Source: Lyngbya sp. HA4199-MV5 (GTDB taxonomy: Bacteria > Cyanobacteriota > Cyanobacteriia > Leptolyngbyales > Leptolyngbyaceae). Taken from it: 55,375 nucleotides of DNA. The translations under genes and the position numbers were made by a program. The notes under the pieces were generated by a model. The model was given only the letters and a program-made list of their open reading frames with translations. It did not search any database and was not told the origin of the DNA. Numbering within the stretch: position 1 is the first letter of the stretch; every line of letters begins with the position of its first letter. Below are positions 6,565 to 32,567 of this stretch, in pieces. The DNA lies in NCBI GenBank assembly GCA_019359375.1, contig JAHHHL010000045.1, positions 1 to 55,375 on the forward strand. The letters are read 5' to 3'.

Positions 6565-8358
6565 CTAACGCGAAGATACTAGCGCACAGCTTGCGTTCAG
6601 GGTTGTCGCAGGGGGTACGAGTGCTACCACATGGGGCACAGGGCGAGGCGTGTAGGCTACGAGTGAGGCTCCTTTGTAGGCAAGCGACGTGCTGGCGCCA
6701 GAGTCAAGCATGACTGCATCTCGAAAGCCTGCTTTGGCGAGTGCCGCTCCTAAATCCACAGAGCCGATCGGCTCCACAGAAACGCCGATTTGAGGTTGCC
6801 CTGCCTGGTTAATGCCCCAAAACGCACGATGGCGCAGTTCGTTGACGCTATAGAGGCGACCAAAGCGCTCAATGGGTTGGGGCTGTTCATTTTCTACCAG
6901 CCAGCCAGCCGCCACAAACGCATCGGTAACATCAGGCATTTCTGCCTGAATGCCTTCCAGTGTGTTGTGCTTAATGTAGTCAAACGGCACGAACTTGACG
7001 GTGCTAGGACCAATTAGCACAAGCGGGCGGTTCGCAAGGAAGGGGATCTCGCCTCGCTTACCAGGGATAAAGGTGCCTTCAGACTGGCTCAAGATGGGAC
7101 CCAGCATCGCATTGGAGTCCAGAAACTCTAGGGAGAAAAAGCCTCCATCCACAGCGGCGATCGCCTCAGTCCCTTCTAAAATTTTGGGCACCTGATCACG
7201 GGTTTTGGCGTGAATGGTGATGGGTTTGCCACCCGCAATGAAAATGAACGGCGTTTGGTCAATGGTCGTTTCTGTACGAACAACCGGAGACGTAAAGTCA
7301 AAGGACTGGGTAAAGGATGGCAACTTAGGACCGCCCCAGGCAAGATCGACCATCTCAGGCAGACGCGATTGCCCAATGCGCCCGATCGTAAACAAATTGT
7401 CTGATTGCCCTGCCAGTCGCTCATCGTTATCGTCCATCGTGAGCGCGGCGGCATACCCTGCCTGCTTGACAGCTTCGACGGCTTGAGCATCAAACTTTCC
7501 TTCTGGATAGGTAAAGTAGCGTACAGGTACGCCAAGTTCTGTCTCTAGAATGCGCTTTGATTCCTGAGTCTCAACTGCCAGTTCTTGCGGAGTCAACCCT
7601 GCCATCACCTTATGGCTCACGCTATGCGACGAGATCGTGACCAACGGGTCTTTTGCCATTTCCCGGAGTTGCTCCCAGGTTAAGCTCGATCGCCCCAGCT
7701 TTTTGCCGATCTTGGCGGTGTAAACAGCAAAAACAGCCGGGTAGTTGTATTTCTTTAAAAGCGGATAAACATAGGTATAGTGCCCACTGTAGCCATCGTC
7801 AAACGTTAGCAGAATCGGCTTTTCAGGCAAGGGCAGCCCCGTTCGCAAATGGGTGACTAACTGATCCATGCTGATGGGCGTTAAACCCTTCTGCTTAATC
7901 AGTTGCAGGCGTTGCTCAAACTCCTCTGGAGTGACATCAAAAAACACCTGCTTTTCCGGCAGAATATCGTGATACATGATCACAGGCACTCTGGCTAACC
8001 GGGCACGCTGGCTGATCTCTGGGAAGGGAGCCGCATTCAAATACGCCAACATCTGCGGTGCCACGCTTTCTAGCAACGTGCCCATGCCGATCGCGGGTTG
8101 CTCGATCAGCGTTGCCGTTTGGGTGACATTGCTAACGAACTGAGTTAAGCCGCCTGCCTGAGAAGACTGTAGCGGTTGGCAACTACTGATTGGCACGGGT
8201 TCAGTCTGTACCGCTGGCGCTTCAGTCTCAAATTCATACGCCCAGGCTGGGTGGAAGCATCCGATCGAGAGCGGTAGCAGTGCTGCCAACCCACTGATGA
8301 CAAGATTGCAGCGATCGCGGCGTTGAGCACTCATAGCTGCTTTGACCAAAGCTCGCAT
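6565..8358 (-). CDS. secreted polysaccharide deacetylase fused to a phosphodiester glycosidase domain
   Basis: About 597 residues from the ATG at 8358; an upstream ATG at 8427 would add 23 residues before a plausible signal peptide (hydrophobic 'LVISGLAALLPLSIGCFHPAWA'). The first half is a NodB/CE4 deacetylase: 'VPVIMYHDI', the metal-binding 'LLTFDDGYSGHY' and the His-x3-His of 'SSHSVSH', then 'RYFTYPEGKFD'. The second half looks like the phosphodiester glycosidase (NAGPA) family: 'IAAVDGGFF', a central beta-rich region, and the C-terminal 'AVMLDSGASTSLAYKG'. Together these suggest removal of N-acetyl groups and hydrolysis of sugar-phosphodiester caps on envelope or extracellular polysaccharide. 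Domain calls are safe; the substrate is unknown. Confidence 0.9.
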   Translation of the reverse strand: MRALVKAAMSAQRRDRCNLVISGLAALLPLSIGCFHPAWAYEFETEAPAVQTEPVPISSCQPLQSSQAGGLTQFVSNVTQTATLIEQPAIGMGTLLESVAPQMLAYLNAAPFPEISQRARLARVPVIMYHDILPEKQVFFDVTPEEFEQRLQLIKQKGLTPISMDQLVTHLRTGLPLPEKPILLTFDDGYSGHYTYVYPLLKKYNYPAVFAVYTAKIGKKLGRSSLTWEQLREMAKDPLVTISSHSVSHKVMAGLTPQELAVETQESKRILETELGVPVRYFTYPEGKFDAQAVEAVKQAGYAAALTMDDNDERLAGQSDNLFTIGRIGQSRLPEMVDLAWGGPKLPSFTQSFDFTSPVVRTETTIDQTPFIFIAGGKPITIHAKTRDQVPKILEGTEAIAAVDGGFFSLEFLDSNAMLGPILSQSEGTFIPGKRGEIPFLANRPLVLIGPSTVKFVPFDYIKHNTLEGIQAEMPDVTDAFVAAGWLVENEQPQPIERFGRLYSVNELRHRAFWGINQAGQPQIGVSVEPIGSVDLGAALAKAGFRDAVMLDSGASTSLAYKGASLVAYTPRPVPHVVALVPPATTLNASCALVSSR

Positions 8359-8640
8359 CACCAATTTCTGCTTGTTTTGCACAACCCCACCTAACCCACA
8401 CTGGAAACAATAGACAGCTAGCAGCATTCTTCGTCACGATCGGTTGTCCACCCATTTAAGGGCAACTACCAAACTGGCAGCAGCGACCCCGCGTTAACAA
8501 TCCGAAATGCCCTTGCTAGATCTACCCTATTTCAGAACGTTTGTCAGGTTTTTTAGCATACTTCTTTCAGTCAAGAGCCAGCCTTCTCGCCCCAGCCTTG
8601 TCAAGGGTCGGTAGTGCCGTGCTGCTGACCAGTCAGGCGC

Positions 8641-8956: not shown

Positions 8957-9212
8957 AGCAGATCCGCTCCTGGTGAAAGGTGAAGTTCAGACCTCTAAGG
9001 TAACTGCTTGCAACATGCCTCCCTACATGCGACTGCTCATGCTCATCTGGAGCTGCTGCAAGTAACGTCTAGCGGCTACTTCGGCTTACGTCTCTTTTTC
9101 CCACAATCCTACTTCGCTGCCGCAAACATCTGGGTCTCACTCAGTCAAAAAGTGCTTTTTTTGCAGCTTGCGAGACCACTTTATACCCCTTAGATTTCGC
9201 CGAGAAACGACT

Positions 9213-9896
9213 ATGGTGATTGCAACGCCCCAAGAAAACCCGCTCAAAATGAGAAACCCCAAGAAACACAATCACTACGGGTTTCGAGACTTCTTCCAGT
9301 TTGACCAGAACAATGGCTCAATCATTGATTGGAACGGCAGTCGCAATGTGCTGACCACCGAAGATTTCATCATTGGTCTGGTAGAGGGGCTAGAAGAAGA
9401 GGTGGGTGATGCTTCGGCCGCCACGATGTATACGATCGGCTGCGAATGGGGGCAGAAAGATGCCTTCTTCTTTGAAAAGTGGTTTGAAAAAGAATTCGAT
9501 CGCAACCTCCGTCAAACCAATCTCCTGTTCTTGCTCGAAACCTGGTGGTGGCCCTTCACCTCTCAAGGTTGGGGACGCTGGGAAGTGGATATGGGCGATC
9601 GCAAGCAAGGCTTCATGTTCATCAACGTGTTTGATTCGGCTGTGGCTCGTAGCCTGGGCGATGTGGGTAAACCCGTCTGCTTCTTGTATGCCGGACTCTT
9701 TGCCGGGTTCTTTACCGAAATGGTGAAAAAGCAACTGAGCTGCATTGAGATTCAGTGCTACTCAATGGGCGAAACCTACTGCAAATTTCTGCTTGGCGGT
9801 CAAGACCGCATCGATGCTGCCTCGTTCTGGCTGAATGAAGGAGCCACGGCTAGAGATATTGAGAAACGCTTACGCACAGGAGATTTACTGCGATGA
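9213..9896 (+). CDS. V4R domain protein (Slr0144-like)
   Basis: A 227-residue soluble protein with a V4R (4-vinyl reductase-like) small-molecule-binding domain covering about residues 45-215. Visible family features are 'EDFIIGLVEGLEEEVGDASAATMYTIGCEWG', 'WWWPFTSQGWGRWEVDM' and the C-terminal 'SCIEIQCYSMGETYCKFLLGG'. V4R domains bind hydrophobic or tetrapyrrole-like ligands. I chose the ATG at 9213; the longer frame adds residues with no family character. It is the first gene of a plus-strand cluster whose order matches slr0144-slr0147 and slr0152 of Synechocystis, the 'PAP' operon linked to photosystem II assembly. Its stop overlaps the next start by four bases (ATGA), so translation is coupled. 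Confidence 0.88.
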   Translation: MVIATPQENPLKMRNPKKHNHYGFRDFFQFDQNNGSIIDWNGSRNVLTTEDFIIGLVEGLEEEVGDASAATMYTIGCEWGQKDAFFFEKWFEKEFDRNLRQTNLLFLLETWWWPFTSQGWGRWEVDMGDRKQGFMFINVFDSAVARSLGDVGKPVCFLYAGLFAGFFTEMVKKQLSCIEIQCYSMGETYCKFLLGGQDRIDAASFWLNEGATARDIEKRLRTGDLLR

Positions 9897-10204
9897 GCGC
9901 TCTTACTCTTCCTCAAACCAATGGTGCTAAGGCGGCTCCTGCGATCGAACCGTGGCAGCGGGAGTCTGTGAAAACATTCTTCACGGGCATCAATTGGGAA
10001 AATCATGCGCCTGTGATCCAAGAGATGAAACAGAGCTTAGCGGAAGGTAGCGGCGTGCCTCTAAGCCTGACAACAAGCGTTTGCCAGTTCTTCGCAACGG
10101 TCAATTGGGAAGGAACCGCGATCGCGGCTCCTACTCCGATCCAGGCTGCTCCAACACCTGCGAATAACGACCTGACGTTAGATGATTTCTCTGGGCTTTT
10201 CTAA
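9893..10204 (+). CDS. small conserved cyanobacterial protein in the PAP-like cluster
   Basis: A 103-residue protein. It has two similar segments, 'VKTFFTGINWEN' (about 27-38) and 'VCQFFATVNWEG' (about 64-75), which read like a degenerate internal repeat, followed by a Pro/Ala-rich linker and an acidic C-terminal 'LTLDDFSGLF' tail. No catalytic motif, signal peptide or membrane segment is visible. By position it corresponds to slr0145 in the Synechocystis PAP operon; I cannot confirm homology without alignment. The ATGA overlap with the V4R gene makes co-translation very likely. The function is unknown. Confidence 0.8.
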   Translation: MSALTLPQTNGAKAAPAIEPWQRESVKTFFTGINWENHAPVIQEMKQSLAEGSGVPLSLTTSVCQFFATVNWEGTAIAAPTPIQAAPTPANNDLTLDDFSGLF

Positions 10205-10395
10205 AGGCAAAGGCTCAAGGCTCAAGGCTAGAAGTTACAGCAATTTTCAATCAAGTGAAGTACAGATCCATGCAGGGAGTCAAGGAGTCAAGAGAGTAAG
10301 GTGTATCTTAGTAAATTGGAAAACGCTGTATTTTGTTCTCACCTTTCATCCCTCATCTTTCATCCCTCATTCCTTCTTTATCCCTCATCCTTTTA
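10205..10395. repeat. low-complexity heptamer-type repeats between cluster genes
   Basis: The 190-base gap holds two short repetitive tracts. One, near 10204-10232, has AGGCTCA/AAGGCTA units. The other, near 10342-10392, is pyrimidine-rich and built from TCATCCC/TCATCTT-like units. An open frame extends upstream through the second tract into the next gene, but those codons come from repeat sequence and are probably not translated. Confidence 0.55.
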
Positions 10396-10887
10396 ATGCA
10401 TATGCACCCACAACTTGAAACGATTTTTGATGAAGCTGAGCATCGGTATCTCAAAGCTGAAGAACTGACCGTCATTAACCAGTACGTAAATTCCTTACCT
10501 GAGCGCTTGGAGACCTACCGGGAGTTGCGCGATCGTGAGATGGAGATTATGCAACAAGTCGCCGATCAATTAGAAGCAGCTTTGCCTCAAGAAACCGTTG
10601 AGAATCTGGAGCGGAGTCTGAAAAATGCACTCCTTTTATTGCGCTATTCCGCCATGGGTATGTTGCTGAATGACGAAGCCTTTGTACAGGATCGACTGGT
10701 CGATTGGCTCACAAAAACAATGAGCCTGCACAATACACGAGCGATCGACATGGCGCTTTTTCGCTTGCTGAATCAGCGGTTAATGCAAATACTCACAACC
10801 AAGCACATTAACTTAGTTGGACCCTACATTGCCAAAGTGCAAACAGCCGTTCTGCAAACTCCAACACTCGCAACGGCAGGCTCATAG
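10396..10887 (+). CDS. phycobiliprotein-like protein lacking the bilin Cys (Slr0146 position)
   Basis: A 163-residue all-helical protein of the phycobilisome globin-like family. 'RYLKAEELTVINQYVNSLPERLETYRELRD' matches the N-terminal helices of phycobiliprotein subunits, and 'ALLLLRYSAMGMLLND' matches helix E, where CpcB has 'CLRDMEIILRYVTYA'. Counting back from the shared Leu-Arg-Tyr (82-84), the chromophore Cys is Ser74 and the conserved Asp is Asn77, so covalent bilin attachment at that site is not expected. It is a paralogue of the protein encoded at 27159-27632. I chose the ATG at 10396, with another ATG two codons later. By position it corresponds to slr0146 of the PAP operon. Confidence 0.85.
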   Translation: MHMHPQLETIFDEAEHRYLKAEELTVINQYVNSLPERLETYRELRDREMEIMQQVADQLEAALPQETVENLERSLKNALLLLRYSAMGMLLNDEAFVQDRLVDWLTKTMSLHNTRAIDMALFRLLNQRLMQILTTKHINLVGPYIAKVQTAVLQTPTLATAGS

Positions 10888-10992
10888 AACGTAGTCAAAT
10901 CTCCGTTAATTTGCAGCAGTTAACGTTGCAGTCTTTCGCGTTTTGCCTTCATCGCCAGCCTTTTCTATTCAATCCACTTCTGGTATTGCTCT

Positions 10993-11649
10993 ATGATTTC
11001 TGTTGCTGATCTACTCACGCATAACCGCGTTCCTGGTAACTATTTTGCGATCGATGCCTACGTCAAAGGCGACCTGGAAATGGGCTTATTAGAGAATCGT
11101 CGCGGCGATCGACTCCTGGCACTGCCCGAAACCTTGATTCAAGCCATCTATTCAGGGCTACAAAAAGAAACGGGGCATGCCTCGCGTTTGGTATTGTTTA
11201 ACTGTGGTCGCTGGTGGGGCAAAAACTTTTATACGCGCTTCCGGGAAGAATTAACAGATTACTACGGCACTGCGCTTGCAGATATGTCCATGCTGGAGTT
11301 TATCAATAGCTTGCAGTCCTGCTGGGTTGCCTATGGGTGGGGCAAGATTGAGTTGGATCACGCACACCAGCAACGAGGCTTTTTGCTCGTCAAAACCGTT
11401 GGGTCTCCGTTTGCAAGTCAGGCTCCCAAGGGGGATGTACCTGTTTGCTTTTTAGAGGCGGGTGTTCTCAGTGCGTTCTTCAGTCAACTGACAGGGCGTG
11501 AATTGCACTGCATCCAAACAACCTGTGAATCGTTAGGTGCTGACTGTAATCATTTTCTCTTAGGTTTAAACAGCCGTTTACAACCTGCCGAATTGATGGT
11601 TGAAAACCGCTTAGATCATGATTCGATCATTCAAAAGCTTTGTGTGTGA
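10993..11649 (+). CDS. V4R domain protein (Slr0147-like)
   Basis: A 218-residue soluble protein, second V4R-domain member of the cluster. Family features are 'LIQAIYSGLQKETGHASRLVLFNCGRWWG' (about 50-78), 'WVAYGWGKIELDH' and the C-terminal 'LHCIQTTCESLGADCNHFLLG', parallel to the same region of the gene at 9213. The two V4R proteins are clearly paralogous but diverged, as slr0144 and slr0147 are. It is expected to bind a hydrophobic or tetrapyrrole ligand and, by cluster context, to help photosystem II assembly. It starts at ATG 10993, 105 bases after the phycobiliprotein-like gene. Confidence 0.87.
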   Translation: MISVADLLTHNRVPGNYFAIDAYVKGDLEMGLLENRRGDRLLALPETLIQAIYSGLQKETGHASRLVLFNCGRWWGKNFYTRFREELTDYYGTALADMSMLEFINSLQSCWVAYGWGKIELDHAHQQRGFLLVKTVGSPFASQAPKGDVPVCFLEAGVLSAFFSQLTGRELHCIQTTCESLGADCNHFLLGLNSRLQPAELMVENRLDHDSIIQKLCV

Positions 11650-11730
11650 TCTAACGTTAGAACTCTAGTTTGTTTGTGGACTTCTCATTGCAAGCAACTA
11701 CCGCATTGAAGTAAAGATTAAACAGTCGGC

Positions 11731-12279
11731 ATGGAAGTCATTTATCACATCAAAGAGAAAGATGTTTTTGCAGGTAGACGGTTGATGCGAAAGGTCTCGC
11801 CCGCTACAAAACGTATCAACCGTACAGCAATGTTCATCGTCGCATTAGCGCCTTTCACTCACTTTCTCTTAAGGCAACAATTCTCTCTGTCTCGTGTTAT
11901 TCAAATGCTAGTTGAGATACTATTAATTACTTTTGCTTATAAAATTTTTTCTATAGTCTTTAATCCAGTGTTTGACAAACAAGCAATTGCGCTATTAAAG
12001 CAGCAAAATGGTGGTGTTCTTGGAGAACACAAAATTGTCATTACTGACGAAGCATTAACTGAAACAACGTCCGTTAATGAATCTTGCCAAAGATGGACTG
12101 GAATCGAAGGGATTTACGAGAACGAGGAGTATATTCTTGTAATGCTTGGGAGCCAGCACGGGCATATTATACCTAAAAGGGCTTTTATCAATAGTGATTC
12201 TGCGAAGCAATTCTACTGCCAAGCACAAAGTTATTATAAAAAATCGCAGATCTTTCAACAGAAAAACTCTGCCATGTGA
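11731..12279 (+). CDS. YcxB-like membrane protein inserted in the PAP-like cluster
   Basis: A 182-residue protein. Two hydrophobic helices (about 33-50 and 58-78) are followed by a cytoplasmic domain that matches the YcxB-like C-terminal domain as I remember it: 'LGEHKIVITDEALTETTSVNES...WTGIEGIYENEEYILVML...HIIPKRAF'. The function of the family is unknown. The gene is noticeably richer in A and T than its neighbours and has no HIP1 octamer. It stands where the Synechocystis operon has slr0148-slr0151, so it looks like a replacement or insertion. It ends 32 bases before the kinase gene. Confidence 0.75.
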   Translation: MEVIYHIKEKDVFAGRRLMRKVSPATKRINRTAMFIVALAPFTHFLLRQQFSLSRVIQMLVEILLITFAYKIFSIVFNPVFDKQAIALLKQQNGGVLGEHKIVITDEALTETTSVNESCQRWTGIEGIYENEEYILVMLGSQHGHIIPKRAFINSDSAKQFYCQAQSYYKKSQIFQQKNSAM

Positions 12280-12311
12280 GTTTTGGCTTTAGAACGATCA
12301 GTTAATGGAAG

Positions 12312-14360
12312 ATGATCGTAAACAAAAGACTAACACTACAAACCAATCATTATTTCCATAATGTGTCATACCTTCTTGCCAAAGAGCTGAAGCGCTCCAA
12401 ATATCGGCTGCTAGGGCTTGTAGGGCAGGGACAGTTTGGGCGCGTCTATTGTGCCAGCCACCGCAAGACAGGTCGTTTAGTAGCGCTCAAAGAGCTTGAT
12501 AAACAACGCTTTCCAACGCATAAGTTCCTGCGTGAACTGCGCTTTTTACTGAGTTTGCAGCACGCCAATATTGTGACCTGTCATGCGCTGGAGCATACCC
12601 CAACCGGGCGCTATCTCGTGATGGACTATTGCGAGGGTGGTACGTTGCGCGGGCTAATGGAAGACGATGTGCGCTTGCATCCAGTGCAGTGCCTCAATCT
12701 GGTTGTTGATGTGCTGCTGGGGTTAGACCATGCTCACAGTCGCGGCATCGTCCATTGCGATATCAAGCCCGAAAACATTCTGCTGACGCTACAGGCAGAC
12801 GGATGGACGGCTCGCGTCTCAGATTTTGGCATTGCCCGGTTGCACCAAGAAAGCACGGATGGCGACAGCAGCAACACAGGGTCGCCTGCCTACATGTCGC
12901 CAGAGCGATTCTATGGTCAGTACGCTGCGACTTCTGATTTGTATGCGGTCGGTGTGCTGTTGTTTGAATTGCTAGCGGGTTATCGACCCTTCTCTGGCGC
13001 GCCTATTGACATGATGTCGGCGCATCTAAATAGCCCAGTTAAGATTCCTGACATCATTCCAGCGGCGCTTCATCCAGTGATTTTGACCGCCTTGCAAAAG
13101 CTGCCAGCACGTCGTTTTCAATCAGCGGCGCAAATGGTGATAGCGGTTCAGGCGGCGGCAGCAGCTATGCCTGTTGGGCAAGCTTGGTCGGATGCCAGAT
13201 TATTACGATCGCCCGTCCCTATATCGACGGGTGTGGGCAAATATGCTCAGCAGGAAGTGCTACAGGCTGAAGTACAGCAATTGGTGGCAGTTTCACTACC
13301 GAGCTCTCAGGTATCTCAGGATCAGACCGAGGCGATCGCGGCTGTCATGCCAATGCTTTCTGCGCCTGCCTTGACGGGGCGAGAGGAGCATGTGTATCAG
13401 CTTTGTGGTCACTACATTGGCTGTCGGCGTTATGCAGAGGGGTTATTAGAGATTGAAGCCGCTCTACGGGAGCATGAAGCACGATCGCAGCTTATCTCTG
13501 TCCGATTGCCCAAGGCGGTGAAGGCGCTATTGGTACGACCGCAAGGATGCTTTGCGCTGACCCAGCGATCGATCTATCGCCTGTCAAGCAATCTCTTTCA
13601 GCAGAGCATCGCTCAGCAGCCACCTGATGTTCACCGCGCTCCATTTCAGCCTGCCGTACCAGAATTGATAGCTGAATTCAGTCGGGATTTTCTCGCCACG
13701 ATTGAGACAAAAGGGCGATGGATGGCAGTAGCGGTGCTAGAGCCAGATAAAGTCACCAGCAGGTTGAGCTTTTGGAATCTGCTGCGGATGCAGTCGATGA
13801 AGCCAGATGGGCGTTATGGTCGTGTCGCTAAAGCACCTCGATCGACAGCACAGTTGTTTCATCTGGCGATGGTCGATTCACGCTATGTTGTCGCTTTCTC
13901 ACATCTGGTCGATCGAGGCACAAATTCTTATATTACTGGGGTGCTGCTAGAAATCTTTACCCGTCGGGGCGATCGAGTCAGTAGCTTCAGCCTCCCTGTG
14001 CCTCTGCGTCAAGTCATGAGCAGTAAGCTACCGTATCAGTTCTTAGCGCTGGAGCCAGGGCAGTCTCATTCAGCTTTGCTCATCGACCTTAAGCCCCTCA
14101 GAATGGTACGCATTGGGTTAGAAATTGTGCCTGTGCTTTTAGCAACGGCATCGTGGGGCTACATTTTAATGGCAGCGAATGGGCAATTTGTCGTCTTAGA
14201 CCGCTATGGGTTAGCGCTTGGGCACATTGTAGGACCGACGAATCCAACGGCGATCGTGGTACTTGAGCCGTATAGTTTACTCATTGCTACCTGGAACGAT
14301 GGGCAGGGAGATCTATACACGATCGATCTGCGGCAAGCCAATATAGGGCTGGTCTTTTAA
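12312..14360 (+). CDS. spkG: serine/threonine protein kinase, SpkG-like
   Basis: A 682-residue protein with an N-terminal Hanks-type kinase domain (about 31-290). Gly-rich loop 'GQGQFGRVY' (38-46), ATP-binding Lys60, catalytic loop 'HCDIKPEN' (148-155, with Cys in place of the usual Arg), 'DFG' (171-173) and activation segment 'GSPAYMSPERF' are all present, so it should be active. The HxD residue change marks it as a non-RD kinase. The remaining 390 residues have no recognisable domain; the last 230 are rich in beta strands and could be a propeller-like sensor region. No transmembrane helix is obvious. Placement at the end of the V4R cluster matches slr0152 (SpkG) in the PAP operon. Confidence 0.88.
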   Translation: MIVNKRLTLQTNHYFHNVSYLLAKELKRSKYRLLGLVGQGQFGRVYCASHRKTGRLVALKELDKQRFPTHKFLRELRFLLSLQHANIVTCHALEHTPTGRYLVMDYCEGGTLRGLMEDDVRLHPVQCLNLVVDVLLGLDHAHSRGIVHCDIKPENILLTLQADGWTARVSDFGIARLHQESTDGDSSNTGSPAYMSPERFYGQYAATSDLYAVGVLLFELLAGYRPFSGAPIDMMSAHLNSPVKIPDIIPAALHPVILTALQKLPARRFQSAAQMVIAVQAAAAAMPVGQAWSDARLLRSPVPISTGVGKYAQQEVLQAEVQQLVAVSLPSSQVSQDQTEAIAAVMPMLSAPALTGREEHVYQLCGHYIGCRRYAEGLLEIEAALREHEARSQLISVRLPKAVKALLVRPQGCFALTQRSIYRLSSNLFQQSIAQQPPDVHRAPFQPAVPELIAEFSRDFLATIETKGRWMAVAVLEPDKVTSRLSFWNLLRMQSMKPDGRYGRVAKAPRSTAQLFHLAMVDSRYVVAFSHLVDRGTNSYITGVLLEIFTRRGDRVSSFSLPVPLRQVMSSKLPYQFLALEPGQSHSALLIDLKPLRMVRIGLEIVPVLLATASWGYILMAANGQFVVLDRYGLALGHIVGPTNPTAIVVLEPYSLLIATWNDGQGDLYTIDLRQANIGLVF

Positions 14361-15274: not shown

Positions 15275-15634
15275 ATGGGTGAGCAAACCTTTGTAGAAGA
15301 AGTTTTGGAATCTCCTATCCCTGTTGTCGTTCATTTTGGTGCTCCCTGGTGTGGACCCTGCAAAATGATCGAGCCGCTTTTGACGCGCTTTCAGGCGGAA
15401 TGGGGCAAGCGGTTTAAGCTGTTTGGCATCAACGCTGACGAGAATCTCAAGTTATCCAGTCGCTATCGCATTAAGACCCTGCCCACCATTCTTCTCTTTG
15501 AGGGCGGGAAGGTGGTGCATCGATTGGAAGGGTTAACTCGCCGCGATGATCTTTGGTCAGAGTTGCAGAAAGTGCTAATTCAACCGTTGCAGACAGATGC
15601 ACAGCCTGAGGTGATGCCGTTCGATCGCGGCTAG
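15275..15634 (+). CDS. thioredoxin family protein
   Basis: A 119-residue cytoplasmic thioredoxin. The active-site motif Trp-Cys-Gly-Pro-Cys-Lys is at 25-30, with Cys26 and Cys29, and the cis-proline lies in 'KTLPTILLFEGGKVVHRLEG' (about 68-87). It has a full thioredoxin fold plus a short C-terminal extension of about 12 residues. It reduces disulphides using electrons from ferredoxin- or NADPH-dependent thioredoxin reductase. It follows the NnrU-family gene closely and may share its transcript. The isoform class cannot be fixed from sequence alone. Confidence 0.93.
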   Translation: MGEQTFVEEVLESPIPVVVHFGAPWCGPCKMIEPLLTRFQAEWGKRFKLFGINADENLKLSSRYRIKTLPTILLFEGGKVVHRLEGLTRRDDLWSELQKVLIQPLQTDAQPEVMPFDRG

Positions 15635-16307
15635 CTGAGACGTGGAATCGATCGCTATCTAATCGTTAGTCAATCAGCGAATCTAAAGACACATGGCAAG
15701 AGAGAGGTGCTTTGTAACCTCACTCATGTGCGATCGTGCTTCTGGTTTTTACAGTTTGTCTTACAGCCGATTTCACCTGGGTGAGCCACCGTGCGTCAAG
15801 CCTGACGGTAGGCAAGAAACGTGCAGCGAGTGCTTTGCACTCACAATTTGCTCGCGTGCGTGAGCGAGACGCTTACACTCAGTTGATGTGGCTGATGCAA
15901 ACGAAACTTGCTGTGAGAGAAGAGTTCTCGCCTAAATTCCTCCGCTAGAACTTTAATAATCCGTTGTCGTGTGCAACACAGCCCTTATCTGAGTCAATCA
16001 AATACACTCAGCTCTGTGTGGAAGGCATCGTCTTTAGCTTGGACAACCAGTCGGCATGGAATTCTGAAGCGCATGAAAAGCAGCCTTTTTAGACACCCTA
16101 ACGCTTCAACAGAAACCCGTTTTAGCTCAAAATTTTGAGCAGACCTTACCTTTTTGCAGATGCAGCCGCCCCGGTTTTTGGGAATGCTAAACCGCAGAAA
16201 CACCGGAATGTTGTGTTCGCACCTGACAGTTTCCTGTTAAGCGTGTGTCACAATGTAAACGGTTTTCCCAACCACGTAAAGAAGAACATTAACCATAGGC
16301 ATGAGCA
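15635..16307. other. 670-base intergenic region upstream of ndhF
   Basis: No gene is supported; short open frames here have no family character. The stretch should hold the ndhF promoter and leader. I see only weak inverted repeats, such as GCGTGCGTGAGCGAGACGC near 15853-15872, and no reliable regulatory motif. Confidence 0.4.
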
Positions 16308-26327: not shown

Positions 26328-27071
26328 TTAATCGATCGCCCGACGTAGTAACGCTTTATGCTCAGTTGATAACGCCGCCAATGCTTTTTCTGGCTGAGGT
26401 GACTGCAAGACTTCCAGCAATTTCGCCAGATCCCCAGTCGGCAAGTTGGACTCTACGACCTCATCGGCTTCAGGGTAACGGCACACTCCGCTTTCACAGG
26501 TTAAGCCCAGTTGATGCCAGTAGATGGTTGGGATCGATCGACCCCGCTGTCCAATATGCTCCTGATTGAGCAGGTGTGATTCTGTGTATGCCTTCGGCGA
26601 TTCGTAGCAGGGCAGTTCACGGGGGTACGGTACAGTAAAGCAGCCAAACGCCTTGCGATATTCTTCGGAGTCGAGAATCGCGGTGATTAAAGCCGTGACC
26701 CCCTCATAGATCATGATGTCGCAATAGCATTTGATCTCTTGAGCCAATGGCGCTCGCCCTAGAAAGTGCTTGAAGCACAATTCTAGAAATTTCATGTTAG
26801 AAGAATTGTAGTAAAAGGCATTGAGATACACGTCAGAGTGCCCTAGCTCACTCAGAAACCGCTTCACCCCAATTTTGTCCGTGAGAAAATCTTTTTCGGC
26901 TTTTGCCAAAAGCTCGCGCTCAGAGCTGTAGGGCTGTCGTTGAAGCACTTGACGATAGATCTGATAGAGCGCAGCTTGGCGTTCGTCCAGAGACGATCGC
27001 CGATTGACGGTCAGTGGTTGTTCGTCCAGAGACAGTCGGCGATCGGCGGTCAGTGGTTGGAAGCAGTTCAT
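26328..27071 (-). CDS. orphan phycobilisome linker-domain protein
   Basis: A 247-residue protein with a phycobilisome linker polypeptide domain (PF00427 type) at about 32-150: 'ALYQIYRQVLQRQPYSSERE', 'FLSELGHSDVYLNAFYYNSSNMKFLELCFKHFLGRAP' and 'ITAILDSEEYRKAFG' are diagnostic. The C-terminal third has a 'RGRSIPTIYWHQLGLTCESGVC' segment with a Cys pair. The N-terminal 30 residues come from two 39-base direct repeats and may not be original coding sequence. It follows the phycobiliprotein-like gene by 87 bases on the same strand, as a linker follows its subunit. No cpc, apc or other linker genes are nearby. It probably joins or binds the neighbouring protein. Confidence 0.87.
   Translation of the reverse strand: MNCFQPLTADRRLSLDEQPLTVNRRSSLDERQAALYQIYRQVLQRQPYSSERELLAKAEKDFLTDKIGVKRFLSELGHSDVYLNAFYYNSSNMKFLELCFKHFLGRAPLAQEIKCYCDIMIYEGVTALITAILDSEEYRKAFGCFTVPYPRELPCYESPKAYTESHLLNQEHIGQRGRSIPTIYWHQLGLTCESGVCRYPEADEVVESNLPTGDLAKLLEVLQSPQPEKALAALSTEHKALLRRAID
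26982..27059. repeat. two 39-base direct repeats inside the linker gene
   Basis: Units 26982-27020 and 27021-27059 start alike (TTCGTCCAGAGAC) and end alike (CGGTCAGTGGTTG). They encode two 13-residue repeats (starting Gln-Pro-Leu-Thr and ending Ser-Leu-Asp-Glu) near the protein N terminus. The unit resembles intergenic CTGACCGCTGA-type repeats seen at about 5301 and 51040. Confidence 0.7.
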
Positions 27072-27158
27072 ACAGTGTCCTCAACGGATGGATGATGCAT
27101 CTGAGGAAACGCGAGGGCAGCGTAGCGAAGTGCTCATTGCTCATGAGACAAGGCACAG

Positions 27159-27632
27159 TCAGGCATGAGACTGTAGCGACTGGGTCACAATTTCAAAATA
27201 AGGGCGTGTAAGGGTTACATCTTCTGCGGGTAGGGCAGCGGCGATCGCGTCTTGCAAGAACCGATAGGCGGTCATACAGTGTGCGGTTTTCTTATGGGCG
27301 AGCAAAATGGTATCTAACCAGGACATCATTTGTTCCTTAAAGAAGGTCTCGTCATTCCGCAAGATCGAGAGTGCGATATAGCGCAACACCTCAGTCATGT
27401 CATATTTGCAGCGTTGACCGTGCTGTTGAATGAGCTCTGGATAGGTTTGTGCTAGTTTGCGGAGCGCTTGAATGACTAGCGCGTCGCCACCATCGCGCAA
27501 CTTTTGGTAGGTCTGGAGTCGCACTGCATAGCTTTGCGCGTACTGCTCCAGAGAAGAAAGCTCCTGAGCGTTGAGGTAGCGCCCATCAGCCTCTAGAATG
27601 CTTTTTTCCAGGGTGTGATTAAGAGTATGCAT
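27159..27632 (-). CDS. orphan phycobiliprotein-like subunit retaining the bilin Cys
   Basis: A 157-residue all-helical protein of the phycobilisome family. The N-terminal 'GRYLNAQELSSLEQYAQSYAVRLQTYQKLRD' matches helices X/Y/A of CpcB-type subunits, 'TYPELIQQHG' matches the loop before helix E, and 'CKYDMTEVLRYIALSILRND' aligns without gaps to the CpcB helix 'CLRDMEIILRYVTYA'. Cys75 thus sits at the universal chromophore position and Asp78 at the bilin-contact Asp, while the usual Arg is Tyr77. It is a paralogue of the Cys-less protein at 10396-10887. It leads a two-gene unit with the linker-domain gene. Covalent phycobilin binding is plausible, not proven. Confidence 0.87.
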   Translation of the reverse strand: MHTLNHTLEKSILEADGRYLNAQELSSLEQYAQSYAVRLQTYQKLRDGGDALVIQALRKLAQTYPELIQQHGQRCKYDMTEVLRYIALSILRNDETFFKEQMMSWLDTILLAHKKTAHCMTAYRFLQDAIAAALPAEDVTLTRPYFEIVTQSLQSHA

Positions 27633-28964: not shown

Positions 28965-31900
28965 ATGAAACCTGAACATCTTGAAAGCTTACGCAAATGC
29001 TGCCAGAGTGATGTTGCTTTTGAGCAGATGCAGCGAATCTTACTAGCAGCAGAGTCCGAGCGTCAGCAGATGGAGTTAAAAACGCTCTGCCAATCGCTGC
29101 TCAGTCAGCCGATTCGCAGCGCTGGTGCCTCTGCGAATATCAATCGTAACCATTATCTCAAATCGCTTGAGGAGCTGATCTTAGAGCGGACGGCTGATTT
29201 ACTCAACACAAACGGTCGGTTGCGGCAAGAAATTGTTGAGCGGCGGCGGGCTGAAAAAGCGCTTCAGGAGAGTGAGCAACGCTTTCGATCGCTCATCGAA
29301 AATGCCACCGATATCATTGTTGTCCTCGATCGCAAGGGCATCTTTCGCTATTGCAGTCCCTCGGCTGCGAAGGTTTTAGGGTATACCATTCAAGATGTCG
29401 TGGGTTACAGCACCGCTGAGTTTGTGCATCCAGACGATATTTCGATCATCGTGGATGTGCTTGAACAAGCGATTGAACATCCTAAAACGAGCCAGCCGAC
29501 GATCGAATATCGAGTACGCAACCGTAACGGCTCCTGGTGCTTTTTTGAGGCGGTCGCTACGAGCCTGCTGGATGTACCAGCCATTAATGGTGTTGTCATT
29601 AACTGCCATGATATTACCGAGCGCAAACGAGCAGAAGAGGCGCTTCTCATTGCCAATCGGCAGACGGTCAACATCCTGGAAAGCATTACGGATGCCTTTA
29701 TGTCGCTCGATCGACAGTGGTGTCTGACCTACGTGAATCAACAGGCTGCGCAATTGTGCCAGCGATCGCGCGAAGAGCTTATAGGGCAAAGCCTTTGGGA
29801 AGTATTTCCTGACATTGTTGGCTCAGTCTTTGATCAGGAATATCACCGGGCGCTGGAACAGCAGGTATCCGTTACCTTTGAAGAGTTTCATCCCTCCCTC
29901 AATGCCTGGTTTGATGTCCGACTCTTTCCTTCTGCTGATGGCGTGTCCCTCTTTTTCTTAGATGTGACTGAGCGCAAGCAAGCACAGGCAGAATTGCTAG
30001 AAATGAGTACAGCCCTTGGCAATGCGGTGGAGGGCATTGCCCGGTTGGATATCAACGGTCACTATATTGCCTTAAACCGGGCGTATGCAGCGTCTCTTGG
30101 CTATCAACAAGAGGAAATGATTGGACTCTCCTGGCAGCAAACGGTGCACCCGGATGATCTAGGTATTGTCACTGCCGCTTACCAGCAGATGATGATTGAA
30201 GGAAAGGCTGAAGCCGAAGCAATGGGCTTACGCAAAGATGGCTCAACGTTTTACAAAGAGATGGTGATGGTGGCTGCGTATGATTGGCACGATCGTCTCA
30301 TTGGGTATCACTGCTTTACAAAGGACATTACAGAGCGTAAGCAAGCAGAAGCTGACCTTCTAGAGAGTCAGGAGCGGCTCAAGCTCACCTTGGAAACCAC
30401 TCAAATGGGTATTTGGGACTATGAGCCACACCGAGATACGGTGAAGTGGTCTGATAGCTGTGAGCAGTTGTACGGGTTTGAACCAGGCGCATTTGCGGGT
30501 ACGAAAGCAGCCTTTCTAGAGTGTGTTCACCCGGACGATCGTGCTGCTGTCACTCAACACACCACCCAGCAAACGCGACAGGCTACCAATTACAGCAAAG
30601 AATTTCGCATCATCCGCCAGGATGGTGATTTGCGTTGGATTTCAGAGCGCAGCCATACCTTTCATGACGAGGCGGGCAACCCGGTGCGCACGCTGGGCAT
30701 TTCAATGGACACCACTGATCGCAAGCGGTTTGAAGAAGCCCTCAGCCAGCAAGCAGAACGAGAACGGTTAATGGGCGCGATCGCTCAGCGCATTCGTAAC
30801 TCGCTCGATCTGGAAGAAACACTGAATACGACCGTTTCAGAAGTTCGGCAGTTCTTAAAAGCCGATCGCGTGGTTCTGTTTGCCTCAGAGCAAGCAAGCA
30901 GTGGTTTTATTACCGCCGAGTCTGTTGATGTGAGCTGGCTGTCAATGCTAGGGGTCAAAATAGAGGGCGACTGGGTTCAGGAGCGCCATGATGAACATCA
31001 TGAAAGTAAGAACGTGGTCATTGCCAATATTCAAACCATCGACTCGCTCAATACGTTCCGGCTGTTTCTGGAGGAGTGGCAGGTCAAAGCGGTTTTGGCA
31101 GTACCCATCTTTCAGGGCAACGCCATCTGGGGGGTTCTCGTTGCCCACCAATGTTCAGCCGAGCGCCACTGGGAGCCGTTTGAAATTGGTCTGCTAGAAC
31201 AACTGGCAACGCAGGTGGCGATCGCCATTCAGCAGTCAGAGTTGTATCGTCAAGTCCAGCAACTCAACACGGCCTTAGAAGCTCAAGTGCATGATCGCAC
31301 CGCGCAACTTCAGCAAGCACTGCGGTTTGAAGCGACGCTAAAGCGCATTACCGACTCTGTGCGCGATAGTTTAGATGAAGACCGCATCTTACAAACGGCA
31401 GTGCAGGAACTGGCATCCGGGCTTGAAATCATGGGCTGCGACGCTGCCCTTTACGATCTAGACCGCCGCACCTCTACCATTTGTTACGAACACATTCTTT
31501 CAGACCTGCCCAAAGCGAATGGTCTGACTGTGAACATGCCGGATCTGGCTGAAGTTTACGACTGGCTCTTACGGGAGCAATGCTTTCAGTTTTGCCGGAT
31601 TCACTCCAATACCCCGCGCTTGTTGCGAAAGCAGCATGCTGTCCTGGCATGTCCAATGGTTGACGACCAGGGTGTTATGGGCGATTTGTGGCTTTTTCGC
31701 CCTTCTGGGGATGCGTTTACCAGCCAGGAAATTCGGTTAGTGCAGCAAGTTGCCAACCAATGCGCGATCGCCATTCGTCAGGCGCGGCTCTATCAGGCTG
31801 CTCAGGCACAGGTCGCCGCGTTAGAAGAACTCAACCAGCTCAAAGACGACTTTCTCAGCACGGTTTCTCATGAATTGCGGACACCCATGTCTAACATGAA

Positions 31901-32567
31901 GATGGCGATTCACATGCTAAAAACCGTTTCGACACCCGAACGGCAGGCGCGCTACCTGGACATTTTGCAGTCGGAATGTTCGCGCGAGATTGAGCTGATT
32001 AATGACTTGCTTGATCTTCAGCGCTTAGAGGCTTCAGCCTACCCCGTCTCATTTGAGACCGTGAATTTGCACACCTGCCTGACAACCGTTATTGAGCCGT
32101 TCTACTCGCGAGCGAACGATCGCCAGCAGTCCTTGACGGTACACCTTCCCACCCATTTGCCGTCCATGACGACAGACAAAGCAACCTTACAGCGAGTTGT
32201 GGCAGAGTTGCTCAATAACGCCTGCAAATACACCTCACCGGGTCATGCCATTACTCTGACAGTTGGCTACGAGTCGCTGCCTTTAGAGAGTGCTGCGAGT
32301 CAGGCGATGGCACAAATGATCATTACCATTGGCAATCAGGCAGAAATTCCTGTAGCGGAGTTGCCACACCTGTTTGAAAAGTTCTATCGGGTTCCCAATG
32401 CAGATCCCTGGAAACAGGGTGGAACAGGACTGGGGCTGGCTCTGGTGCAGCGTCTCATCAGCCAGCTTGAAGGCGTAATCCGGGTCGAGAGCCGCAATGG
32501 GTGGACACATTTCTCGATTCAACTGCCTCTACCAGTACACGCGCTTATGCCAGTACTCTCTGCTTAA
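28965..32567 (+). CDS. multi-PAS, double-GAF sensor histidine kinase
   Basis: A 1200-residue soluble histidine kinase without transmembrane helices. After an N-terminal coiled region (about 1-95) come four PAS domains (about 100-215, 230-340, 345-465, 475-600; several end in the 'DITERKxAE' PAC signature), two GAF domains (about 615-770 and 800-955), HisKA with 'STVSHELRTP' (phospho-His 969) and a HATPase domain ending in 'GGTGLGLALVQRLI'. GAF1 resembles phytochrome/CBCR GAFs ('VKAVLAVPI...VAHQC..RHW'), but Thr stands where the chromophore Cys would be. No cognate response regulator is adjacent. The signal is unknown. Confidence 0.94.
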   Translation: MKPEHLESLRKCCQSDVAFEQMQRILLAAESERQQMELKTLCQSLLSQPIRSAGASANINRNHYLKSLEELILERTADLLNTNGRLRQEIVERRRAEKALQESEQRFRSLIENATDIIVVLDRKGIFRYCSPSAAKVLGYTIQDVVGYSTAEFVHPDDISIIVDVLEQAIEHPKTSQPTIEYRVRNRNGSWCFFEAVATSLLDVPAINGVVINCHDITERKRAEEALLIANRQTVNILESITDAFMSLDRQWCLTYVNQQAAQLCQRSREELIGQSLWEVFPDIVGSVFDQEYHRALEQQVSVTFEEFHPSLNAWFDVRLFPSADGVSLFFLDVTERKQAQAELLEMSTALGNAVEGIARLDINGHYIALNRAYAASLGYQQEEMIGLSWQQTVHPDDLGIVTAAYQQMMIEGKAEAEAMGLRKDGSTFYKEMVMVAAYDWHDRLIGYHCFTKDITERKQAEADLLESQERLKLTLETTQMGIWDYEPHRDTVKWSDSCEQLYGFEPGAFAGTKAAFLECVHPDDRAAVTQHTTQQTRQATNYSKEFRIIRQDGDLRWISERSHTFHDEAGNPVRTLGISMDTTDRKRFEEALSQQAERERLMGAIAQRIRNSLDLEETLNTTVSEVRQFLKADRVVLFASEQASSGFITAESVDVSWLSMLGVKIEGDWVQERHDEHHESKNVVIANIQTIDSLNTFRLFLEEWQVKAVLAVPIFQGNAIWGVLVAHQCSAERHWEPFEIGLLEQLATQVAIAIQQSELYRQVQQLNTALEAQVHDRTAQLQQALRFEATLKRITDSVRDSLDEDRILQTAVQELASGLEIMGCDAALYDLDRRTSTICYEHILSDLPKANGLTVNMPDLAEVYDWLLREQCFQFCRIHSNTPRLLRKQHAVLACPMVDDQGVMGDLWLFRPSGDAFTSQEIRLVQQVANQCAIAIRQARLYQAAQAQVAALEELNQLKDDFLSTVSHELRTPMSNMKMAIHMLKTVSTPERQARYLDILQSECSREIELINDLLDLQRLEASAYPVSFETVNLHTCLTTVIEPFYSRANDRQQSLTVHLPTHLPSMTTDKATLQRVVAELLNNACKYTSPGHAITLTVGYESLPLESAASQAMAQMIITIGNQAEIPVAELPHLFEKFYRVPNADPWKQGGTGLGLALVQRLISQLEGVIRVESRNGWTHFSIQLPLPVHALMPVLSA

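Follow-up and report, generated by a model that had tools for sequence, protein, structure and literature searches.

A BBAG-type globin paired with a one-domain phycobilisome linker as a conserved two-gene module in filamentous cyanobacteria

Introduction

A 55,375-nucleotide stretch of DNA from Lyngbya sp. HA4199-MV5 (the window) holds a small gene for a phycobiliprotein-like globin followed by a gene for a phycobilisome linker-domain protein. The locus raises the question of whether these two genes form one unit, from which branch of the bilin-binding globins the first is drawn, and what such a unit might do for the photosynthetic apparatus.

A setting for the question is given by Rockwell et al. 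(2023), who described globins of this kind under the name BBAGs (bilin biosynthesis-associated globins) in V4R/Fe-S/globin gene clusters such as slr0144-slr0149 (PMC10151467). In the portion of that account available to us, the BBAGs tested bind bilin, in E. coli, those measured are weakly fluorescent with yields of 3-7%, and, where this is stated, they are photoinactive or photoinert (PMC10151467). The Slr0144-Slr0149 proteins are described in the text accessible to us as interacting with one another, sitting on thylakoids and acting mainly in photosynthetic repair (PMC9880817), a role for which PMC6002478 is also cited, and the slr0144-slr0152 operon has been classed as associated with PSII assembly (PMC9145668).

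Results

Two open-reading frames encode a phycobiliprotein-fold globin and a linker

Both open-reading frames were found exactly where the original prediction had placed them (Table 1). The globin matches the phycobiliprotein family PF00502 with 78 bits (E 1e-21) and the linker matches PF00427 with 122 bits (E 1.9e-35); both scores lie above the Pfam cut-offs and agree with the predicted folds, placing the two products in the phycobiliprotein fold superfamily and among the phycobilisome linkers, respectively. The genome contains 20 PF00502 matches, of which only the globin and its paralogue at 10396-10887 are on this contig. Since no PF00502 gene in the window lies closer to the globin than this paralogue, the globin is without an alpha/beta operon partner, and the description of an orphan subunit outside any cpc or apc operon holds, no cpc or apc gene being near it in this genome. 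An Rfam scan of the window gave 0 matches and a promoter scan gave hits at chance level. Where dS was computable, in 8 of 25 comparisons (the other 17 being saturated), dN/dS came to 0.04-0.07 (globin) and 0.03-0.07 (linker), which indicates purifying selection on both genes in these comparisons.

Table 1 Features of the globin-linker locus and of the V4R cluster on the same contig
Feature	Position	Strand	Remark
Globin gene, 157 aa	27159..27632	-	Phycobiliprotein-fold, BBAG-type; signature R74-C75-x-Y77-D78-M79
Linker gene, 247 aa	26328..27071	-	One-domain phycobilisome linker; adjoins globin gene
Globin-linker gap, 87 bp	27072..27158	-	No terminator-like site within the gap
PBS_linker_poly (PF00427) domain	26619..26990	-	Profile score nearest ApcE repeat domains
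Linker C-terminal C-x4-C (Cys192, Cys197)	26481..26498	-	Low-confidence part of the linker model
Cys75 codon, predicted bilin attachment site	27408..27410	-	Aligns with Cys84-type Cys
Tyr77 and Asp78 codons	27399..27404	-	Tyr in place of the Arg of C-x-R-D
Cys119 codon, second family-specific conserved Cys	27276..27278	-	Kept in 66/69 members
V4R, 103-aa ORF, globin (Ser/Asn at bilin site), V4R	9168..11649	+	PF02830 twice and PF00502; ~15 kb from the pair, same contig

The bilin site is kept with a family-specific motif

Alignment with the Cys84-type site confirmed that the bilin position is intact, with Cys75 and Asp78 both in place, Asp78 aligning with the Asp of the C-x-R-D motif of allophycocyanin and phycocyanin chains. 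The ungapped alignment claimed for the protein stands for the chromophore helix; compared with phycobiliproteins, the loop that leads up to Cys75 lacks 6-8 residues. A CpcB-type motif was not found, as the site reads C-x-Y-D and not C-x-R-D. All 69 aligned members, the window protein and its 68 named relatives, have Cys75, Tyr77 and Asp78, and 66/69 have Arg74, in a sample biased by the presence of the Cys75 motif in one of the two patterns used to retrieve these relatives. A protein search without the motif pattern, a less biased sample, found the Cys, the Tyr and the Asp invariant in 16/16 genomes. Loss of the cysteine among homologues had been named beforehand as counting against a bilin-bearing protein, and the cysteine is present in every one of the aligned members. 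Retention of Cys75 by chance was rejected, given that a cysteine at the bilin site is kept in 16/29 and lost in 13/29 rows of cluster (BBAG) globins and lost in 0/69 pair globins. Cys119, nearly constant in the family (Table 1), occurs in 5/29 BBAG rows and 0/15 phycobiliprotein rows. At the position of Tyr77, 15/15 phycobiliprotein and 18/29 BBAG rows have an Arg. The presence of Tyr for the Arg of C-x-R-D in all members suggests that bilin geometry or binding may differ in this family. The globin also keeps an acid at position 16 and Arg84, which we take to be alpha-beta interface residues in phycobiliproteins, together with the N-terminal X/Y helices in the predicted model; Arg84 is replaced by Cys in 9/69 members.

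The globin probably groups with BBAG-type globins

The closeness to CpcB that had been proposed was not borne out, and descent as a diverged CpcB was rejected on the best PDB sequence matches, which are allophycocyanins (with phycocyanin beta chains close behind), on the trees and on signature residues. The solved folds nearest to the predicted globin fold are likewise allophycocyanins, far-red forms included. Trp105, Tyr42 and Tyr123 of the window globin are shared with 28/29, 27/29 and 26/29 cluster globins, respectively, and with 0/15 phycobiliproteins. Trees were built with the window globin and 26 of the 68 named globins. In the 72-row tree, the phycobiliproteins split off at 100/96 and the pair globins lie on the side of the V4R-cluster globins, forming one group with the globin of locus L072 at 100/98; the group without L072 has 74/41. 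An AU test did not reject a tree joining the pair globins with phycobiliproteins (p-AU 0.195), and the position of the pair globins among the cluster globins is not fixed by the tree. In a quick tree with three long rows left out, the ApcE bilin domain grouped with the phycobiliproteins, and the nearest non-pair globins were that of L072, followed by those of the clusters in genomes G332 and G177. On residues and trees, the pair globin appears to sit with the BBAG-type globins, in a placement that is not fully decided.

Several further PF00502 genes were noted. The L072 globin (7989-8450; G170:C8), with the motif C-K-R-D, is a second globin of a genome carrying the pair, and no linker was found beside it. 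At L167 (G010, from another class of the phylum), V4R-globin-V4R genes occur together with a separate 268-aa PF00502 protein. In the window's own genome, locus L082 on contig C85 encodes phycobiliprotein-like proteins of 197 aa (15549-16142; C-W-R-D, N-terminal extension) and 203 aa (12822-13433; C-L-R-D, C-terminal extension), both near a region with cpcBA, a bilin reductase gene and a CpeS-type gene, and a 193-aa protein similar to these is encoded at L175 (12482-13063). The C-terminal part of a 369-aa ORF at L020 / L084 (own genome, contig C5, ~15281) matches PF00502 partially.

A V4R cluster on the same contig points to a probable origin of the pair

The paralogue at 10396-10887 was confirmed by alignment to have Ser and Asn at the bilin-site positions, as predicted. 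It had been considered without its context, and is flanked by two V4R genes in an arrangement that fits the described BBAG clusters. The second V4R gene is followed by a YcxB-like gene and then a protein kinase gene, and the 103-aa ORF of the cluster has no Pfam match. By gene content and alignment, the region 9168-14360 corresponds to a cyanobacterial BBAG cluster, with a globin from which the predicted bilin Cys has been lost.

V4R genes (PF02830) were found in 59 of 386 genomes of the phylum, and all 16 genomes with the globin-linker pair are among these, a nesting with a chance of 1.3e-14 if genomes are independent. A linker search at E <1e-28 recovered 14 of the 16 pair genomes together with G177 and G332, two genomes of one genus in which a relative of the linker adjoins the Fe-S gene belonging to a V4R-globin-V4R cluster. 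This relative is 39% identical to the window linker and joins the pair linkers at 99/99. In 7 of the 68 named loci, of Oscillatoria/Laspinema type, the pair is ~5-6 kb from an Fe-S gene, and three of these seven (L113, L132, L133) also have V4R and cluster globin genes. The V4R cluster, represented on this contig by 9168..11649, is the probable ancestral context of the pair. The data suggest that the linker joined the V4R cluster first and that the pair separated from it later, an order of events that we infer.

The globin and linker genes are conserved together

The 386 genomes are an even draw from a larger group, one per species. The same 16 of them, from 9 family codes and 12 genera, carry both the globin (E <1e-35) and the linker (E <1e-35), the linker line having been fixed before the search and the globin line chosen after seeing the gap in E-values between the last pair member (6.6e-36) and the next match (1.1e-28). 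The chance of this overlap is 1e-28 if genomes are independent; the genomes are related. The linker adjoins the globin in 15/16, the exception being L037 (genome G060, with the linker on another contig). Co-occurrence in other genomes had been named as a check on the pairing, and the finding of both genes in the same genomes, mostly side by side, bears out that the linker is genuinely paired with the globin.

The 68 named loci come from Leptolyngbyaceae, Oculatellaceae, Pseudanabaena, Oscillatoria, Planktothrix, Arthrospira, Laspinema, Roseofilum and others. At 52 of them the linker gene is adjacent to and downstream of the globin gene on the same strand, with a gap of -120 to 454 bp, the negative values of which may reflect start-codon choice. 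The linker is elsewhere in the genome for 6 of the other 16 (L085, L089, L097, L108, L110, L145); the contig of L145 ends close to the globin, so this separation is perhaps a contig-break artefact. An intact linker is missing in the remaining 10 of the 68, 8 of which are MAGs by title. Two of these have broken linker remnants beside the globin (L093, 5997-6452; L118, 8562-8812), and in the genomes of the other eight (L095, L096, L098, L107, L109, L137, L147, L150; 6/8 MAGs by title) a linker was not found. The globin can therefore persist without a linker. A larger conserved operon was rejected, as neighbours besides the linker vary between lineages; the next commonest neighbour cluster, of mixed kinases and response regulators, is found at 25/68 loci, scattered and on both strands. 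Eight Oscillatoria/Laspinema-type loci (L113, 7104-7817, and seven others) share a further gene on the upstream side of the pair, and the L113 copy, the only one of the eight scanned, is GvpL/GvpF-like (gas vesicle). A PDB search with the Arthrospira pair returned homologues only, in one case among the best 60 of 69 matches. The globin and linker genes make up a two-gene module whose conservation extends over many filamentous cyanobacteria.

The linker leans toward the ApcE/CpcG side of its family

Rod linkers (CpcC/CpeC) typically have a C-terminal CpcD domain. No CpcD-type domain was found in the window linker or in the families listed for the 45 aligned members (the window linker and 44 of 52 others, two-domain linkers being left out). 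Against single domains, the profile of these 45 linkers scored 119 bits for 2ky4, an Anabaena phycobilisome linker domain that we presume to be an ApcE repeat, 113 bits for the 3ohw ApcE repeat and 114 bits for repeat 3 of Anabaena ApcE 7eyd; repeat 2 of 7eyd scored 69 bits, so that ApcE repeats vary widely. The best rod-type score was 108 bits, for a red-algal rod or rod-core linker; scores were at most 99 bits for cyanobacterial rod linkers, 91 for CpcG and 81 for CpcL. In the domain tree, the pair linkers form a clade with ApcE repeats and CpcG (a long branch) against rod linkers at 97/95, which also places the window linker outside the eight rod linkers of its own genome. On CpcG models the window linker scored 56-60 bits against cut-offs of 420-440, while the CpcG of the same genome scored 180-240, also below the cut-offs, and a rod linker 88-106; it is the contrast with the genome's own CpcG, and not the missed cut-off, that indicates the linker is not CpcG. 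A VIA-align comparison of the linker model brought rod and core linkers out close together. Domain tree and profile scores thus lean toward an ApcE/CpcG kinship of the linker.

The tail of the linker carries a motif of its own, with Cys192 in 44/45, Gly195 in 43/45 and Cys197 in 44/45 members, and Pfam gave nothing consistent for it among the 45; the cysteines may serve metal or bilin binding or a redox function. Linkers of 432-450 aa lie beside the globin at eight loci, mostly of Pseudanabaena (L112, L114, L116, L122, L125, L126, L128, L151), and each of the three that were split (L112, L114, L128) contains two linker motifs.

Five linkers separated from the globin (L172, L175, L176, L177, L178) form one clade at 100/97. 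In three of these five genomes (L172, L175, L177), the linker gene precedes cpcB-cpcA-cpcE-cpcF and shares their strand, and at L175 a CpeS-type gene and two bilin reductase genes intervene; the phycocyanin and CpcE/CpcF proteins scanned at these loci pass the NCBIfam cut-offs. The other two separated linkers have no antenna-query match within 18 kb. The three cpc-located linkers group together at 100/99, so their position may reflect a single event. In Stenomitos rutilans (L085), a globin 94% identical to that of the window occurs with a linker of the separated-linker clade, indicating that the linker was probably exchanged.

Discussion

Given these results, we see roughly an even chance that the two genes encode one unit, in which a BBAG-type and probably bilin-carrying globin is docked on phycobiliprotein discs by its dedicated one-domain linker. 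PF00427 linker-family proteins are known to bind phycobiliproteins, and the domain of the window linker would sit in an allophycocyanin- or phycocyanin-type disc like other PF00427 domains. The globin, with its retained X/Y helices, acid at position 16 and Arg84, may join or cap that disc. The bilin would be attached at Cys75, and this attachment may need no lyase, as has been reported for other BBAGs. Such a layout would resemble an ApcE cut in two, with a globin that does not descend from the ApcE bilin domain.

The pair can be set beside four known systems. It resembles the cyanobacterial BBAGs (slr0149 and relatives) in the fold and the Trp105/Tyr42/Tyr123 residues of its globin, in the single gene without an alpha/beta partner and in its occurrence in V4R genomes, and differs from them in the R-C-x-Y-D-M motif, the extra Cys119, the always-kept Cys75, the dedicated linker and a location usually outside the V4R cluster; the part of the BBAG account available to us mentions no linker partner (PMC10151467). 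It is like ApcE (LCM) in the order of a bilin-type domain and then a PF00427 repeat, and in a linker profile closest to ApcE repeats, but it consists of two proteins with one repeat (two in the three split Pseudanabaena linkers), and the ApcE bilin domain is not the source of its globin. No ORF of at least 250 aa holding both globin and linker parts was present among the loci searched. With the rod-core and PSI linkers CpcG/CpcL, the pair linker shares one PF00427 domain followed by a unique C-terminal part, whereas its low scores on CpcG models, its own clade and the C-terminal C-x4-C set it apart. The globin has the fold, Cys84-type site, acid at 16 and Arg84 of the light-harvesting phycobiliproteins (ApcA/B/D/F, CpcA/B, CpeA/B), unlike which it has C-x-Y-D, a short loop before the Cys, no operon partner and a separate group in the best tree.

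Other explanations have to be weighed against such a unit. The globin might be a minor but ordinary light-harvesting subunit that replaces one alpha or beta chain in a linker-held disc and passes energy on like ApcD or ApcF. A phycobiliprotein fold with X/Y helices, the likeness to allophycocyanins, the linker on the ApcE/CpcG side, its place beside cpc operons in three genomes and a p-AU of 0.195 for a clade with phycobiliproteins are all consistent with this, but we consider it unlikely, as the best tree puts the globin outside the phycobiliproteins, the BBAG signature residues are present, the Arg of C-x-R-D is lost, and the gene is restricted to 16/386 genomes nested in those with V4R. Alternatively, the pair could be a PSII or phycobilisome assembly or repair factor whose pocket takes up a different ligand, or a bilin only transiently, and which does not serve to absorb light. 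This would fit the nesting in V4R genomes, the placement in several lineages close to or directly beside V4R/Fe-S clusters, and the thylakoid repair and PSII assembly roles assigned to Slr0144-Slr0149 and slr0144-slr0152 in the accessible text of those reports (PMC9880817, PMC9145668). The conservation of Cys75 in 69/69 pair globins against 16/29 cluster globins points instead to a covalent ligand. The binding of phycobiliproteins by linker-family proteins, which PDB matches also illustrate, likewise speaks against such a factor, which seems to us unlikely.

A photosensor, in which a bilin globin would signal through the linker, is suggested by a PAS/GAF histidine kinase gene (1200 aa, 28965-32567) that lies upstream of the pair and on the opposite strand, by a similar kinase gene that in 7 close relatives is 1-4 genes away from the globin, and by the presence of a member of the kinase/response-regulator cluster within 8 kb at 25/68 loci. 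These signalling genes are scattered, on both strands and of several kinds, so that they look like a shared neighbourhood in one lineage plus chance, and they lent no specific support to the sensor reading offered in the original prediction. The pair also has no output domain in Pfam, and the tested BBAGs were photoinactive or photoinert where the available account states it; a photosensor is extremely improbable. That the two genes share a neighbourhood and a lineage and form no complex is very improbable as well, even though the linker is away from the globin in 5 genomes, has apparently been exchanged in one for a member of another linker clade beside a 94% identical globin, and was not found intact for 10/68 globins. 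Against mere neighbourhood, both genes are kept even where they are unlinked (in G060 and in the genomes of L085, L089, L108 and L110), and the remaining neighbours differ from one lineage to another.

For the docked globin-linker unit, a role in the assembly or repair of the antenna or of PSII is favoured by the nesting of the pair in V4R genomes together with the repair reports on Slr0144-Slr0149. The unit would be a minor accessory that ties phycobilisomes, or assembly and repair intermediates, to the V4R/Fe-S/globin complex, and by analogy with the measured BBAGs its bilin, weakly fluorescent, might trap energy or signal occupancy. A bolder version, which we offer tentatively and regard as improbable in its full form, is a split, miniature ApcE-like device: an ancient bilin globin of the photosystem-maintenance (V4R/Fe-S) cluster, given its own linker, would plug into allophycocyanin or phycocyanin discs and drain or report excitation while phycobilisomes or PSII are assembled and repaired. 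It would be a pigment-based checkpoint, in contrast to the OCP, which relies on a carotenoid. Literature searches, which covered open-access papers, returned no paper on the globin-linker pair. The kinds of components are known; their combination and the globin motif are apparently new.

Conclusions

If the linker bridges the globin and the antenna, clusters of the slr0144-slr0149 type would gain a link to the antenna, none being clear in the literature consulted. The pair offers a testable bridge from the light-harvesting antenna to a poorly understood photosystem-maintenance cluster. It further illustrates a way for bilin globins and linkers to enter into new combinations, which bears on the origin of the phycobilisome.
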